A stretch of 64,000 bases of DNA, from positions 374,093-438,092 of the forward strand of contig JAVKOQ010000012.1 of assembly GCA_031835245.1 (NCBI GenBank), in the 5' to 3' direction. This stretch comes from Balamuthia mandrillaris. Taxonomy: Eukaryota > Discosea > Longamoebia > Balamuthiidae. A program made the position numbers and the translations under genes. The notes beneath the pieces were generated by a model. It saw only the letters and a list, made by a program, of their open reading frames with translations. It did no database searches and was not told the DNA's origin. Below, piece by piece: positions 56,451 to 64,000 of this stretch. How positions within the stretch are numbered: position 1 is the stretch's first letter; the number at the start of each line of letters is the position of its first letter.

Positions 56451-56914
56451 TAGTTTTATTCTTTGTAGTTTAGTTTGTTTGACAAAAAAGGGATTTAATT
56501 GCAACAGATCTGGTTTTATGAAAGCTTGTTTGCTTCTCCTGCCCTATTTTTGTTTGAACTCAAAGCATTTGCACTTGTTTGATTACAATTGTAACACCCT
56601 AGGATAGAGAATGAGCTTGAAAGCAAAAACCACTTGTGTTGGCTAGGTCATTTCACAACAAGCTAAAAATTAATTGTTTTTGTGACAGAGCTCAAAAATC
56701 AATTTAAAATTTGCTATTTTGCTTGTTGTTTTGCTATTTTGAAAAAAAAGGGTTTTGTTTATTCTTTAAAACATAAGGGTTAGGGTTAAGTGCGGGTACT
56801 CAGAACCTACAGCATTCAACTCCCCATGGTCCATTCTATAAAACTCTAAGTCTATAAGTCTAACAGATAAAGTGGGTCAAAGTAGCAATTTTTTCAATTT
56901 TTGTATAGGAATAC
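56451..56914. other. AT-rich intergenic DNA at the start of the repeat-rich end
   Basis: Markedly AT-rich compared with everything to the left, and without genes. It contains the short telomere-like repeat at 56,775-56,790. Confidence 0.5.
56775..56790 (+). repeat. Interstitial telomere-like repeat
   Basis: AAGGGTTAGGGTTAAG holds two TTAGGG-type units. TTAGGG is the commonest eukaryotic telomere repeat. Two units can occur by chance in AT-rich DNA, but the position at the edge of the repeat-rich region is suggestive. Confidence 0.35.
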
Positions 56915-57844
56915 CTATATGTTGGTTGAATCCAACCTTAGGAAGGAAAGAGTCGGTGACGAGACAAGGAGTGTATTCAAGAGAATAGGGGAAAGACAAT
57001 GAGAGTGAATCTCTGACGTTGCTTCAAAGTACACCGAGAGAAAGGGGGAAAAGAGAGAAAGGAAGGATGGGGGATACAAAAGAAAGGAGAGCTGAGGGTC
57101 CGGGACGGATCCAATATGAGGAGTCTTGAGATAAGTGTTGGTGATTTTACCAACATATATAATCGAACAAGATATAATCATAATATCATCATCATTATCA
57201 TCATCATTCTCCTCTGTCTCTTCCTTTTCATCCAAGATGGATATAACTGTAGTGGTAGTAGAAGTAGGAGATGATGGGAAGGAAGTGTTGTCATTATCAT
57301 CATCATCTGATTTGTCAAAGTCCTCATCGTGGGCCACCAAGTATTTGGCCTTCAAAGCATCCAGATTGTTGAAGAATTCTGTGAGGAGATTGCGCCATTT
57401 ATCATAGCAATCATTGTTGGTTCGACGTTGGGTAGGCAAGTGTTTGGCAATCTCCAACCAAGACCATCCATCACGCAAGCACCAAGTGACAAGTCTACGG
57501 ATTTCTGGTGCCTGCCAAGCGATCCGTTGCCGATGGCCATTCTTCCGATATTTGAGTCAACTGGATAACAATTATTGTCACTGAAGCGCTCTATGAACTC
57601 ATTGTCGTCGTGGTGTTTGTTTTTTTGAGTCATCAAAGCATTCCTTACCCCTCGTCAAGAGCACATCCTTATCAAACTCATCTGGATGATTTTCTACCCA
57701 AGCGGTACAACATTCAAGCCACAAGGAGCGATAAAATCGTATTTGTTGATGTTTGGTTGGCAAATCTGTTCGTTTCATGAACCACCTAAAGAAGCAGTGT
57801 AAAAGAAGAAGAGAGAAAGAGAAAGCGAGAGAAAGAGAGAGCAA
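56915..57844 (-). pseudogene. Myb/SANT-type DNA-binding gene remnant
   Basis: On the minus strand about 57,560-57,350 reads a Myb/SANT-like (trihelix-type) repeat: IAWQAPEIRRLVTWC, then DGWSWLEIAKHLPTQRR, then NNDCYDKWRNLLTEFF, followed by an acidic Asp-rich stretch. Tryptophan spacing and the R-x-x-x-x-C-x-x-K-W motif are typical. An upstream segment, about 57,790-57,655 (TDLPTKHQQIRFYRSLWLE), is in another frame with a good donor after it. The Myb frame is closed by a TGA just upstream, and no acceptor joins the two in phase. It is therefore either a decayed transposon-type gene or has an exon structure I could not solve. PIF/Harbinger-like elements often carry such a Myb protein. Confidence 0.55.
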
Positions 57845-58777: not shown

Positions 58778-58978
58778 CCTACTCCCTTGGTTTCATCTCT
58801 TTGCTGAATGAAGCATCAGCAGCAAGCTTTTCTGCCCAAGAAAGCAAGTCCGCACAGCCTACTCCCTTGGTTTTCATCTCTTTGCTGAAGAAGCATCAGC
58901 AGCGAGCTTTTCTGCCCAAGGAAGCAAGTCCGCACAGCCTACTCCCTTGGTTTCATCTCTTTGCTGAAGAAGCACACA
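58778..58978 (+). repeat. 80-bp tandem repeat, 2.5 copies, third interrupted
   Basis: Units start at 58,778, 58,858 and 58,938 (period 80 bp), each beginning CCTACTCCCTTGG. Copies 1 and 2 are nearly identical. Copy 3 follows the unit to about 58,973 and then leaves it, directly before the inverted repeat of the transposon at 58,979. Confidence 0.9.
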
Positions 58979-59047
58979 GGTAAAAGTTCCCAAGAATTTT
59001 TGTAAAAGTTTCAAAGGTAGGTAAAGGTTTCGACAGGAATTTTTACC
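58979..59047 (+). repeat. Left terminal inverted repeat
   Basis: The first 38 bases align with the reverse complement of 63,963-63,998 at about 80% identity with small gaps; a second match, CAGGAATTTTTACC versus TAGGAATTTTTCCG, closes the repeat. It has internal sub-repeats of the type GG(A/T)AAAAGTTYC. Confidence 0.7.
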
Positions 59048-59144
59048 ATTCCTGAAATTTTTCCTTGTGTTAAAAGAGGAGAGATCGGGAGTAACAGCCA
59101 GCTGATGATGGCGGTCGCCAAGAAGGAAAGGGTGTAAAGTAAAT

Positions 59145-62100
59145 TTATTTTGTAACGGAAACGTGTTTTTGCTGTCGTCTTTTCCTCCTTGCAAGGCGTC
59201 TGGGCTGTCTCTGAGAAACAACTGGCACGGTGGAAGTTGAGTTTGCTGGGGGAGTGGTTGTTGCAGCGACTTGGAGGGGAGAAGAAGCAGTGTGGGTGGC
59301 TTGAGGAGGAGGCAGAGGAAGAGGAGATGGGTTGGGAGCCGCTGAAAAATGAGAAGAAGGAGAGATAGAGTTGGAGACGGAGGAGGAGATGGAGATGGTG
59401 GAGGAAGTTTTCCTTGCATGCTGTGCTGGCTTAGGTGGCACAATTAGTTCCTCATTCTGGTACCGAGGGTTGGGCCGCCGTGTCCTCTTGCTTCCTGGTG
59501 GAGCTGGGCTAAAGCGATTACTTACGTCTCCTTTCCACGGCGATAGTGGGCTCATGCCATAATGGCCATGCGTCTTCTTTTTTACATAGGTTGTAGAGGC
59601 AGGGCTAGTGGGCGGCTTGTGGTTACACGCAGCTTTGTTGCTGGTGGGTGGTTTTGCCTTGTTGTTCTTTCTGGGAGCCTTGACGCCTGTTGCTGGAGGG
59701 ACTTTCTTTTTGCCAGTTGTGGCTTTGGGCTTGCCGTTGTGTGGTTTGGCTGACGGAGGTTGCTTTGGTCGGCTGTTTTCCAAATTTGCAGAAATAGCTT
59801 TGCTGAGCTCTTGCTGCTTGGAGGGTTTCTTCTTCCGTCGGGTTGGGAGCGCGAAATGTTTCTCCGTGTTTCTTGGTCTACCTCGAGAAACCCTACGAGA
59901 GTTCCATTCCTCGTCTAGTCGCCTTTCCTCTTCATAGGAAAAGTTCAGCGTAGGTTGTATTAATACTTGGCTCCATTCCGGATCCTCCTTTTCACTATCA
60001 TCCACCTCAGCTTCGCCATCATGAGCCTCCTCCTCCTCCTCCTCCTCCTCCTCCTCCTCCCTCCTCCTCCTCCCCTCTGCTCCTCCACTCTCCTCCTCCT
60101 CCTCCTCCTCCTCTCCTCCTCCTCCTCCTCCATCCTCCTCATCTCCTCCTCCTCCATCTTTCCTCCTTTTCTTCTTCCTCCTCACTCTCCTCCTTCGTCC
60201 ACTTCTCCTCCTCCTCATCTTTATCTGCGGCTGCTGCTTCCGCTTTATCTGGGTGACAATGATCATCATCGGTGCCCTCCTCCTTGTCATCATCGCTGGT
60301 GGTGTCCTCATAGACACGGCCGCTATCATCACTAGAAGTGTTGGTAGGGTCAGAGTCGCTGTCATCGCTGGGATCGCTTTCGACTGCAGCAGGATCTGTG
60401 GGAATTCGAACAGAAGCAGGATGTGGATGGTCAAAAGGACAGCTTTCTCGTGGGAACTCCCTTTGAAAGTGGTAGCTCAGCGCAAAAATGTGCTTACACC
60501 GTTTGCCAGTGCAACGGTAGAAGTTGCAGCTACAGTGCCAAGAGTCGAAACACACGTAGTATTTGCCAAAGGAGAAGTGACGGTTGGTTATCGGAGAGAA
60601 GTAGCCTTCCTGTGCCAGTTTCCAGCCCTTTGCCTGCCTTATCCAGAGTGCGCGGATACTCCTGGAAGGTCTAGGTTTCTTTTTGGCCGCCAATCTCTGC
60701 TGAAACGCCAGGTCGTGCGATGCAAGGGTCGTTTCTCCCAAGGTAACCTGCATAGTTTCTGGTGCTTTGGCCTTTTTTTGATGGAAGTCCAGCCGCACTA
60801 CCTTCTTCCATAAAGCTTCCGTCGCGTTGTTGGTGTTGTACAGGCCTTCTCTGAAACCAGGGCGACTTCTGGTCGTCCACGCATCTTTCCAATCAGCAGA
60901 CAACCAGTTGGCTTTGAAGTAGGTGTAAAAGTCACCGAACGACGATTCAAGCAGCTCAAGCGCCTCCTCTTCCTCTTCCTCTGTCGGAGCATGCTGAACA
61001 CGTTTCAACAAAGCCATGATCGCGGATTGGTCTGCGAGGAAAAAGGAACATAGCGCAGCGTTAGTAATGACGAAATCAAAGACAAAAGGAAACAAGAGGT
61101 AACAACAAAGTACCATCTTTATAACGCAAGGTTTTTTGCCTCCATCGTTTTTGAACGTGAAACTCACACAAAAGAAAAGAGAAACCTGCATCCACTGCAG
61201 CCTTTCGGATTGTCCTATCCTTGTCCATCATTATAATGGGGTTCCAGTTGATGTCTGGGAAGTCAGCTGCCATCTTTGTTTGAAGCAGCTGAAGGAAGAA
61301 GGTAATCGCCTCTGCCTTGGCCTTGTTGGTAATAAGGAAGCCCACTGGCCACAGATGACCAAGTTCATCCTCAACTACCAAGCCCCACACTGGGAACTCG
61401 GCTTTGGAAAGCTTCCAGATTGCGTCCAGCCCTACAATGTCCTGGCCCCACATTTCCAGAAGCTCTCCTGCACGGGGCGCCAGAAGAATGATCATCCAAC
61501 TACTTTGCAGCTGCTGCTGCGTGCGAAAGTATCCCTCTCTGAGGCTCCGCCGAGGCCAAGCTACGAAGGGGGACATAGTTTCTCGGGACAACGCTTGTTG
61601 CAGTCTCTCTTGGCGGCTTAACGGCTGCTCCCCTTGTTGACCTCGCTGCTTCCTCCTTCCGTATGCGATGATGTCTTGAATCTTGGCCACAGATGGCAGC
61701 AGCTCTTTTGGGATGGCAGCAGGCAAGCCAGACATCGCCCCTGCTTCCAACTGGCGCCTTGCAGAGGATGCAGTGATTAGGCCTCCTGCACTGGTTTCCA
61801 ATCCATCCCGTGAAAGAATCTCCTTCTTAAGAAAAGCAGGAACAGGCAGCACATCGTGGTAGAGGGCGAAACGTTCTCCATGGCTCCCGGTGTGGTAGAT
61901 CCACGCTGTGTGGAGATCCTCCGAAAAGATGGCCCATCGAGCCTGTTTTCCGCAGGCACTCATCCGTTTGTTACTGGCACTCGCTGGCGGGGTGCAGTCC
62001 ATTTTGCCATTGCACCAAACAACTTCAGAGAGCACTGGGGTATTCCTCTTCGCCTCTCCAACACTGAGCTCCAGATTTGGGCCTTCTCTCGGGTTCACCT

Positions 62101-62275
62101 GATTCCAGGCGGAAACGTCTTTTGACCAAACAATCCCTTTGGTTTTCCAACGACATCGAAAGGCAACCGGGGCACCAGGGGACAAGCCAAGCATGAATAG
62201 GGGTAAATCCTTGACAGGGATAGAAGAAACAAAGCTCCAACCTTTATAGTGCTGCTGATGAGAAGTGGTTTTCAT
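59145..62275 (-). CDS. MULE-like transposase with SWIM zinc finger and AT-hook
   Basis: Exon 1 is 62275..61114 and exon 2 starts at 61031 after an 82-nt GT-AG intron (phase 1, joining RYKD to DQSAIMALL). The catalytic core shows GLDAIWK (first acid, codon at 61,424-61,426), IIMMDKDRTIRKA (second acid, about 61,225), LLCEFHVQKRW (the MULE CxxH motif, about 61,160) and TNNATEALWKK (third acid, Glu at 60,817-60,819). Downstream is a SWIM finger, CSC then CTGKRCKHIFAL (about 60,490-60,540). Then the frame runs into a GAG/GGA tract where it ends at 60,139, while an overlapping frame continues (60,434-59,145) with RGRPRN (AT-hook) and a basic Ser/Pro tail. A frameshift or tiny intron must lie in 60,140-60,430. 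If the tail is real the protein exceeds 900 residues. KDZ-type transposases are an alternative family. Confidence 0.8.
60024..60165 (-). repeat. Imperfect (GAG/GGA)n tract within the transposase
   Basis: About 140 bp of purine triplets on the sense strand encode Glu-, Gly- and Arg-rich runs depending on frame. Indels in such a tract are common and could explain the switch of frame here. Confidence 0.85.
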
Positions 62276-62657
62276 TCTGTTGGAACTTGGGCTACTGCTT
62301 TCACGTTTGACAAAAGAAAATATCAAACTGCTATTTCTTATTTTTTCAAAGGTCATACAATCTTAATATGGAAATATAACCGTTATACATTTGGTGCCAT
62401 TTTTTACTCCGAATATTTCGGACTTGAATAACAAATCATAATTCATAAATCAACAGAAACCCACCAATGAATTTCAATCACTAAAACAAATGCTTATTGG
62501 AGGCCATAATTTATGTCGACTAGGAAGATCTCCACCTTTTATGATAAAATATATGAAGAAAAGATTTCAAACAAAGATCAAAAATAAAAAATAAAAAAAA
62601 CAAAAGTTGCTTCACTTGGAGTCGAACAGAGATACCTTCCTTTTATTAATAATTAAT
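62276..62657. other. Spacer between the two transposon genes
   Basis: About 380 bp, very AT-rich, with no frame I can support. It should contain the transposase promoter and the dioxygenase 3' UTR. Confidence 0.5.
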
Positions 62658-63605
62658 TCACTGCAATACAAAACTGAGCATATCGTGATGACAAAAAAAT
62701 ACAATGGAGTATCTTGTTCCGCCAAAATAAGGTTCCACTTTGTGTTTAATATCAAAACCATTAAAAAAAATCAAATCTCCAGGTTTTGCTTCTATTCTTA
62801 TGTTTAGTTCTGGTAACACAAGAGCACCACCATCCGTAAAGGTACCAAGAACAAGGATTGCTGTTACTCCACCCCTATAGTCATTTTTGTCTAAATGAGC
62901 ACTCACGCAGAAGTTAACATTTATAACTATTGTTGCTGTACTAGGAGAAATACAAGAGGTAAATAAACAAAAGATGTGTGTTGATAAAATTTTAAAAAAA
63001 AACATACCAAATGGAGCAAACGGATTATGTTTTCTAGAAGCCTTTTCCACTTCAACGTTTACCTCCATGTACCTCGCAAACAGCTCCGGAAACTGCTGCT
63101 TCAAATGAGAGGCCACCTTTTCAAATATCGGCTTATGTTTGTTTAGCCACTTTTTGGAGAGTGGATGGCTTGTGCCTTTGACTTCCACAATGCTTTTACG
63201 GTAGCGAGACCACCAACCAAGACGAACAGTTACCTGCTCCTCGCGGTTAGTCTTCTTTTTATACTGTTTTGGCAACTGTCCAGCGAGCTCTTCTATGTCC
63301 TTCGAACAGCCCGTGCATAGCTCCTTTCTAACTGCATGGATAAGGAGGACCACTGCATAGCCGCCGCGATCCTCCTTCAGTCGCCGGTAGCCCGTTCGAG
63401 AGAAAGTAGCCGGCTCGTCTTCAAACGCCGTTGCCGCTAATTCTCTGTGTTTCGGGGTTGTAGGAATGAACCGACTGAGAACTTGTTTCTTTTGTTGTTC
63501 CCTGAACTTTCGTGTTCTTTCTGCCGCGCTCATTAAAGGCGTCAGCCTTTCGCCTCGATACTTTCTTTCTTGTAGTTTCTTTGAGGAGGAAACGTTGTCA
63601 GCCAT
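62658..63605 (-). CDS. TET/JBP-like 2-oxoglutarate/Fe(II) dioxygenase
   Basis: Two exons, complement(62658..62935, 63008..63605), with a 72-nt GT-AG intron, give 291 residues; the unspliced frame is also open but adds 24 residues of no sense in the middle of a strand. The double-stranded beta helix core reads ATIVINVNFCVSAHLDKND, then LVLGTFTDGGALVLPELNI, IEAKPGDLIFFNGFDIKH and GTRYSIVFF. The iron ligands are H213, D215 and H264, and R274 should bind 2-oxoglutarate. The LVLPELNIRI block followed by PGDLIFF is characteristic of the TET/JBP-like enzymes that accompany fungal KDZ transposons. The N-terminal 195 residues are basic and helical, with LGWWSRYRKSIVEV. By family knowledge it could oxidise methylated pyrimidines in DNA; the true base is unknown. 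Confidence 0.8.
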   Translation of the reverse strand: MADNVSSSKKLQERKYRGERLTPLMSAAERTRKFREQQKKQVLSRFIPTTPKHRELAATAFEDEPATFSRTGYRRLKEDRGGYAVVLLIHAVRKELCTGCSKDIEELAGQLPKQYKKKTNREEQVTVRLGWWSRYRKSIVEVKGTSHPLSKKWLNKHKPIFEKVASHLKQQFPELFARYMEVNVEVEKASRKHNPFAPFGMFFFKILSTHIFCLFTSCISPSTATIVINVNFCVSAHLDKNDYRGGVTAILVLGTFTDGGALVLPELNIRIEAKPGDLIFFNGFDIKHKVEPYFGGTRYSIVFFCHHDMLSFVLQ

Positions 63606-63915
63606 GCAAATACTGATGAGACACGAGTTAGCCACAACCAAATGGAGTCAAATAAAACCTGACCACCTTCTCTTTTGCTCTCACCCGCAGAAAAAGTACT
63701 GCTAAAAAGTGCCGCTCCTTCGCGGCCGATCCTGCTTGGTTGCACAAGACCCTTTTTTCTTTCCTTCGCTCTTGTCTCTGTTTTAAAAAGGAAATTTTTG
63801 TTTCAGTAACGGCAAGGAAAGGATAAGATACTACAGCAAAAACTGGCAAGGTAGACAGGAGAGAGCTCCTTCGGATGATAGGCGCCAGTGCGTCGCTTAT
63901 AAGGCATTTACCCGG
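63606..63915. promoter_or_regulatory. Right subterminal region / promoter of the dioxygenase
   Basis: About 310 bp between the dioxygenase start and the right inverted repeat. No other gene is supported. It should hold the promoter of the dioxygenase and perhaps subterminal transposase sites; none was recognised. Confidence 0.4.
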
Positions 63916-64000
63916 AAAAATTCCTATATAAGGAAACATTTTTCTAGGAACTTTTCCAGGGGCCTTAAACTTTCACAAAGGTTTCTGGGAACTTTTCCTT
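63916..64000 (-). repeat. Right terminal inverted repeat (runs to the window edge)
   Basis: Reverse complement of the left end. It contains GGAACTTTTCC and GGGAACTTTTCC as internal repeats. The outermost bases and target duplication may lie past 64,000. Confidence 0.7.

Follow-up and report, generated by a model that had tools for sequence, protein, structure and literature searches.

Can a DNA transposon of a protist carry its own DNA-oxidising enzyme, and what would such a gene do for its carrier? The question is raised by a locus of Balamuthia mandrillaris, an amoebozoan of the Centramoebida, at the end of a 64-kb stretch of contig C11 (374,093-438,092; hereafter the window, to whose positions all coordinates refer unless a contig is named). 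The genome assembly used comprises 64.8 Mb in 775 contigs. From 58,972 to 64,000, where the window and contig C11 end together, lies a DNA transposon of ~4.9 kb with degenerate inverted ends and two genes on the same strand. The element is an autonomous Mutator-like (MULE) transposon, whose transposase is of the D-D-CxxH-E type with a SWIM finger. Its second gene is a TET/JBP-type dioxygenase, for which oxidation of 5-methylcytosine (5mC) or thymine is predicted. We consider it probable, on indirect evidence, that this MULE acquired a TET/JBP gene of host type by capture and has retained it as a functional partner of the transposase gene; its enzyme would oxidise 5mC on the element and so counter silencing.

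The element and its two genes

The dioxygenase has 291 residues and falls with TET/JBP enzymes, as the initial annotation had proposed. Pfam Tet_JBP (cut-off 34.9 bits) matches both the frame read in the window (37.2 bits) and P0001, the annotated protein of the copy on C170 (48.2 bits), with which the intron acceptor and the start of exon 2 were made to agree by eye. The Fe(II)/2-oxoglutarate (2OG) pattern HxD...H...R is kept, with H189, D191, H240 and R250 in P0001, and we take R250 to be the 2OG-binding residue. The HxD/E and H correspond to the iron site described for TET/JBP enzymes (PMC12730594); the element reads HLD, so that the HxE which replaces HxD as the hallmark of PE-type fungal TET proteins (Kojima 2025, PMC12730594) does not occur here. 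A profile search placed TETs nearest among solved structures (CcTet, E 3e-9; Naegleria Tet, E 8e-7), followed by PiuC, a PKHD-type hydroxylase, at E 0.17-0.19. AlkB was absent from the Pfam and solved-structure matches, and an AlkB or prolyl hydroxylase identity was rejected, since both sets of matches favour TET/JBP. In a search of 5.8 billion clustered proteins, where matches require shared 5-residue words, the dioxygenase recovered a single metagenome protein (P0004, E 1e-12) and otherwise nothing but proteins of Balamuthia. The transposase recovered Balamuthia proteins only, among the 8000 best candidates scored.

The transposase reads through 711 residues before it meets a stop within a stretch of low complexity. 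Its catalytic D, D, CxxH and E residues and the C, C, C and H of its SWIM finger (CxC...CxH, residues 581-595) are identical in a second MULE family of the same genome that is 38% identical to it, which bears out the class of transposase first suggested for this locus. Profile matches are mixed. The MULE profile PF10551 (cut-off 27.6 bits) scored 28.4 bits at the window locus in a genome scan, and 24.8 bits with the translated exon and 24.1 bits with the spliced protein, both below that cut-off. Pfam SWIM matched the second family at E 5.5e-6, with P0005, the annotated protein of the copy on C99 (0.021), and the element transposase (0.97) below cut-off. ZSWIM1/3 was also among the matches, as was IS256, a bacterial relative of MULE, at E 2e-6 but far under the IS256 cut-off; the MULE, SWIM, ZSWIM1/3 and IS256 matches are thus mostly below their cut-offs. 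Besides these profiles the element has a DDE set with CxxH, a SWIM finger, inverted repeats and a 9-bp target-site duplication, which lies within the 8-11 bp given for MULEs (PMC6446971). The core of the gene is as originally described, and its C-terminal tail is not: in the window copy the low-complexity tail, with an AT-hook-like GRPR motif recognised by eye, is out of frame with the core, and in P0005 (927 residues) it is continuous with the core and has a basic end with the GRPR motif. Public annotation apparently misnames the transposase proteins P0005, P0006 and P0007, as "Transcription factor BYE1", "High mobility group protein B3" and "GTP--RNA guanylyltransferase".

Degenerate inverted repeats enclosing exactly two same-strand genes had been claimed, and both parts of this description hold. 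An inverted-repeat search of the window copy pairs 58,982-59,011 with 63,967-63,996 (30 nt, 83% complementary), and end alignment of the C50 copy shows degenerate terminal inverted repeats over 90 nt; Pfam returned nothing at E 0.01 for the eight further frames (at least 80 residues) that overlap it. The bounds have to be redrawn around a repeat that is itself real: alignment of copies shifts the left terminus outward by 7 nt, from 58,979 to ~58,972, and the right end lies ~11 nt beyond the contig end that cuts it. The left terminus reads GCACACAGG in the window copy, GCGACACAGG in five of seven aligned copies (nine were found) and GCAACACAGG in C460, the terminal 3-4 nt being uncertain because the flank of the window copy is a tandem repeat. 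This repeat consists of three units at ~80 nt spacing (58,778-58,968) which directly adjoin the element on its left side. At the right end, C50, C460 and C79 share GCAAAAAAAGGAAAAGTTCC (read inward), and C107 has a variant.

These ends recur in the genome, as anticipated. Nine places match the left 162 bases, and in eight of these the match starts at the first base; for the right 201 bases there are six strong and three weak matches. Furthermore, perfect 9-bp target duplications flank both of the two copies in which each flank is readable, AAAAGGGCA in C50 and AACCAAGAA in C460. The C50 copy measures 4,930 bp, while that of C460 still keeps its outer duplication around an insert of ~22 kb between its two genes. 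The insert (C460:7291-29676) has direct terminal repeats, an integrase-like frame identified by eye and a short TATATT duplication. The structure of the copies shows that the transposase moves the element via its ends and creates 9-bp target duplications. Coordinates of the features are collected in the table.

Table. Features of the two-gene transposon in the window.
Feature	Positions	Strand	Basis
Degenerate terminal inverted repeat, left end (terminus GCACACAGGTAAAAGTTCCC)	58972..59061		Copy alignment and C50 end alignment, 90 nt
Frame with low-complexity C-terminal tail of the transposase, AT-hook-like GRPR (by eye), out of frame with the core here	59145..60434	-	
Transposase exon 2: third catalytic residue (NNATE), SWIM finger CxC...CxH	60139..61031	-	
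Transposase intron, GT...AG; second family interrupted at the same place	61032..61113	-	
Transposase exon 1: N-terminal region, MULE core, first D, second D, CxxH	61114..62356	-	
Dioxygenase exon 2, HxD...H...R catalytic core	62658..62935	-	
Dioxygenase intron, phase 1; the C26/C397 host TET/JBP gene is interrupted at this codon too	62936..63007	-	
Dioxygenase exon 1	63008..63605	-	
Right terminal inverted repeat, ~11 nt short at contig end	63922..64000		Copy alignment, end alignment

Copies, joint inheritance and selection

Among the loci fetched, 21 resemble the element at the DNA level, a count that leaves out a few places with weak protein or right-end matches only. Both genes are present in eight of them (C11, C170, C765, C50, C460, C480 and, in part, C99 and C661), with the same order and strand in all eight. 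The remaining loci are fragments. Eight have parts of the transposase, including C98, scored as such within the fetched stretch only, and C131, which also has 25 nt of dioxygenase; five have parts of the dioxygenase only, and two of these (C269 and C362) are identical. All four single-gene junctions inspected (C225, C277, C79 and C107) change to other sequence. The four copies that span both ends (C11, C765, C50 and C460, the first two lacking ~11 nt where their contigs end) each contain both genes, and no complete element without the dioxygenase occurs among the 21 loci. Inter-copy distances of the two genes are also correlated over seven copies (Pearson 0.89), with 24 of 5040 Mantel permutations as high. 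A chance neighbourhood of the two genes was rejected because order and strand agree in all eight loci and the ends are shared, and the proposal that the genes are inherited together is thereby upheld. The silent divergence of the two genes follows contrasting patterns: between C11 and C480 it is 0.22 in the dioxygenase, about half the 0.40 of the transposase, a pattern displayed by the divergent copies C480 and C460, and in the young pair C11-C50 it is reversed (0.038 in the dioxygenase, 0.021 in the transposase). Gene conversion is a possible cause of this contrast.

Are the genes maintained by selection? On the deep splits, the ratio of nonsynonymous to synonymous change (dN/dS) in the dioxygenase is 0.23 (0.14-0.38) between C11 and C480, and in the transposase it is 0.16 (0.11-0.22) between C11 and C99. 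Because CpG hypermutation inflates silent change, CpG sites were masked and neutral decay was simulated. Masking gave 0.17 (0.07-0.38) and 0.18 (0.12-0.26) for the same pairs, respectively. The simulations used a CpG-biased spectrum, and in neither pair did any of 300 neutral runs reach the unmasked ratio, so that an artefact of CpG hypermutation was rejected for the deep splits. We conclude that the dioxygenase is under purifying selection on its deepest split. The transposase is constrained between C11 and C460 as well (0 of 300 simulations). This last pair is the sole shallower one simulated for the dioxygenase; young pairs are uninformative.

CpG decay and the source of the dioxygenase gene

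Copies of the element carry transitions at 325 of 1997 CpG sites, compared with 372 of the 16,420 C/G sites outside CpG and 239 of the 21,763 A/T sites (14 of the 20 aligned loci, those with at least 40 CpG sites). The C460 copy has transitions at 78 of its 244 CpG sites, and the silent third positions of the transposase differ between C11 and C50 by transitions at 7 of 55 CpG versus 1 of 571 other sites. A like decay (40/414 versus 24/2159) affects a repeat at 56,700-57,700 of the window, compared here over 12 fetched copies and that of the window. This repeat has 164 matching pieces and looks subtelomeric, because all 12 fetched copies sit 1.5-14 kb from a contig end; the transposon copies of C170 and C79 abut repeats of this type, and in the window the gap is 1.3 kb. 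A host gene (C248/C317) also specifies a DNMT1-like protein that has both BAH and methylase domains. From the CpG decay and the DNMT1-like gene we infer that the transitions are a footprint of 5mC and that CpGs of the element, and of at least one further repeat, are methylated in Balamuthia. Acanthamoeba is a centramoebid relative of Balamuthia. In Acanthamoeba CpG methylation has been described on mobile elements (PMC12344493, PMC12210455); literature searches on the Balamuthia genome or its methylation found no on-topic paper. The CpG bias is 4.8-7.6x when C11 is compared with C50, C765, C277 and C460, and 2.0-2.2x (unpolarised) across the deep split, against C480 or C99. Escape of the source copies from methylation would predict such a weaker bias on the deep split; with saturation and selection at work there too, the difference is suggestive only. 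Two contigs of the assembly, C3 and C69, bear bacterial genes, cytosine methyltransferases among them, in which TGA is read through (by eye, a code like that of mollicutes); they are a bacterial associate or contaminant.

Other TET/JBP genes of the genome provide a clue to the source of the element's dioxygenase. They lie on C26 and C397, a pair whose alignment extends through the flanks and which appears to represent a single locus in two versions, and on C41 (QOT17_006035). The element's dioxygenase is 35% identical to the gene on C26/C397 and 29% to that on C41. The intron of the C26/C397 gene occupies the same codon and phase as that of the element, and C41 is uninterrupted there. This common intron suggests that the element took its dioxygenase from a host-type TET/JBP gene, and favours genomic DNA as the form in which it was captured; descent in the reverse direction, of the host gene from the transposon, is also conceivable. 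The copy lists contain no transposon copies at C26/C397 or C41. The C26/C397 locus is without the decay of the element, its unpolarised CpG transitions being 1.9x those at other C/G sites (7.6% versus 3.9%), and transversions are numerous there (26 to 13). Like the element in the placement of its intron, the host gene on C26/C397 differs from it at the usual HxD iron site, which reads H-R-N (C26:137118-137871, C397:10484-11231) where the element and C41 keep HxD. The C26/C397 enzyme may therefore be altered or inactive, to judge from its residues.

The second MULE family (~60 places) is sister to the element, with 36-39% identity in its long matches. No dioxygenase was found near it, the closest on a common contig being ~13 kb off (C731), and the gene was therefore either gained in the lineage of the element or lost in that of the sister. 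In 13 loci of the ~60 places the CpG bias of this TET-less family is weak (60/2559 versus 110/14,961). The ratio of transition rates at CpG and other C/G sites is ~3, against ~7 in the TET-bearing family, a modest contrast (odds ratio 1.6, p 0.008). At 17 or more places (C4, C7, C31, C110, C473, C738 and others) the second family lies ~455 bases from a contig end, and contigs stop at its terminus, GCAAAAATGG. Telomeric targeting as the reason for these contig ends was rejected, since 10 internal loci of this family (some overlapping) run past that point; the stop is for this reason treated as an assembly break, which it probably is.

The role of the dioxygenase and known systems

How might a TET/JBP gene serve its transposon? 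Host CpG methylation would silence copies of the element, the dioxygenase would oxidise 5mC on them, and the oxidised base would be lost through repair or dilution. Transposase expression would then last longer, and new insertions would remain transcribable and mobile for longer, while copies devoid of dioxygenase activity would become methylated and decay. The preservation of the gene suggests that it may help the element resist silencing by DNA methylation, and a role in escape from silencing fits the indirect evidence set out above. The TET-bearing family would be the methylated one, in which the gene pays, an arrangement that fits both its stronger decay and a protective role. Several results weigh against this interpretation. 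CpG decay is not unique to the element, the subtelomeric repeat showing it too, and TET-bearing copies decay more than those of the TET-less sister family. That sister family is the commoner of the two (~60 places) and has little CpG hypermutation in the 13 loci compared, and the dioxygenase gene is therefore dispensable for success. Selection on the dioxygenase depends on one deep full-length split, that of C480 from the rest, and between C11 and C460 the gene is indistinguishable from neutral, with 67 of 300 simulations at or below the observed ratio, although the plain bootstrap interval is nonetheless below 1 (0.27-0.91). Additionally, the AlphaFold models of both proteins are of low confidence (mean predicted local distance difference test scores of 40.0 and 34.7), and the first gave no fold match at E 0.001, its best being E 1.5.

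Other explanations have to be set beside capture for anti-silencing. In one of them, unlikely though the strongest of the rivals, the dioxygenase would not erase 5mC but serve another purpose, marking the ends or controlling the excision or timing of the element through a modified base: 5-hydroxymethylcytosine (5hmC), 5-hydroxymethyluracil (5hmU) or the oxidation of N6-methyladenine (6mA). The breadth of the enzyme group speaks for it, since TET/JBP proteins include JBP, which acts on thymine, and CMD1, and CcTet acts on 6mA as well (PMC12730594); the Naegleria enzyme also acts on thymine, and 5hmC went undetected in Naegleria DNA (PMC12344493). Yet the CpG decay of the copies indicates 5mC as the mark present, and Pfam disclosed no second modifying gene in the other frames of the element. 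It is somewhat less likely still that the dioxygenase is a captured passenger, comparable to the cargo of Pack-MULEs, with no role in transposition. MULEs do acquire host gene fragments (PMC6446971), the common intron indicates capture from a host-type gene, and the one shallower dioxygenase pair simulated fits neutrality; nevertheless, the whole gene and its catalytic residues persist in two sublineages under purifying selection, and the 21 loci include no complete element that lacks it.

The stronger CpG bias of the TET-bearing family could also mean that TET oxidation itself drives, or adds to, CpG-to-TpG decay, as a cost or as a defence exploited by the host, rather than spontaneous deamination of 5mC being the simple cause. 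We regard this as improbable, given that the subtelomeric repeat decays alike. Least credible of all is a transposase of KDZ type (Zisupton/Dileera/Kyakuja), which would turn the locus into the known fungal association in another host, and this candidate was rejected. Pfam contains a KDZ family, and scans at E up to 1 returned no match to it, but instead the MULE, SWIM, ZSWIM1/3 and IS256 matches, mostly below cut-off. Fungal KDZ elements do carry TET/JBP genes, but 8-bp duplications are reported for Zisupton (PMC12730594), as opposed to the 9 bp found here. Anti-silencing through a captured gene thus remains our preferred interpretation. For its fuller form, in which a non-fungal MULE independently captured a TET/JBP gene of the amoebozoan host lineage, intron included, as a self-demethylating device against a CpG-methylating host, we see even chances.

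As far as literature searches show, TET/JBP genes on transposons had previously been described in fungi only, and on other superfamilies. The amoebozoan case differs in its transposase superfamily, its likely host-gene source and its measurable CpG decay, and suggests an independent origin of the same counter-defence. If true, the capture of DNA-demethylating enzymes recurs across eukaryotic supergroups and transposase superfamilies. The element would also provide a single-celled system for direct tests of anti-silencing by DNA oxidation, with the TET-less sister family as a natural control. The initial annotation knew of no described element that joins a TET/JBP gene to a MULE transposase in a protist. 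Its statement agrees with our literature searches, in which the slashed term TET/JBP is not searchable: no TET-bearing MULE or non-fungal TET-bearing transposon was found in them, nor in the available sections of PMC12730594, PMC6446971 and PMC12477816. Its reference to fungal KDZ elements was correct but incomplete, as hAT, Harbinger, EnSpm, IS3EU, ESTA, Plavaka and Helitron elements carry such genes as well (PMC12730594).

Kojima (2025, PMC12730594) reports TET/JBP genes on eleven fungal transposon lineages, none of them MULE in the sections available, and cites Iyer et al. (2014) for earlier work on KDZ and Plavaka. Like the Balamuthia element, these fungal TET-bearing DNA transposons have a TET/JBP gene, mostly undisrupted, beside the transposase; unlike them, the present element is a MULE in an amoebozoan, and its dioxygenase is nearest to a host amoeba gene with which it has an intron in common. 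MULE/MuDR elements that bear accessory genes (Dupeyron et al. 2019, PMC6446971) resemble it in their MULE transposase, SWIM finger, terminal inverted repeats, 9-bp duplications and, sometimes, a second gene. Their accessory parts, in the sections available, are SET, OTU, PMD and FAR1 and unknown open reading frames; in contrast to the element, neither "dioxygenase" nor "oxygenase" occurs in that paper. The plant VANDAL elements (PMC12730594) provide a parallel in function, being MULEs with a gene that counters their own epigenetic silencing, as is predicted here. The anti-silencing protein of VANDAL elements is a sequence-specific regulator (PMC12730594), whereas that of the Balamuthia element is predicted to be a DNA-oxidising enzyme.

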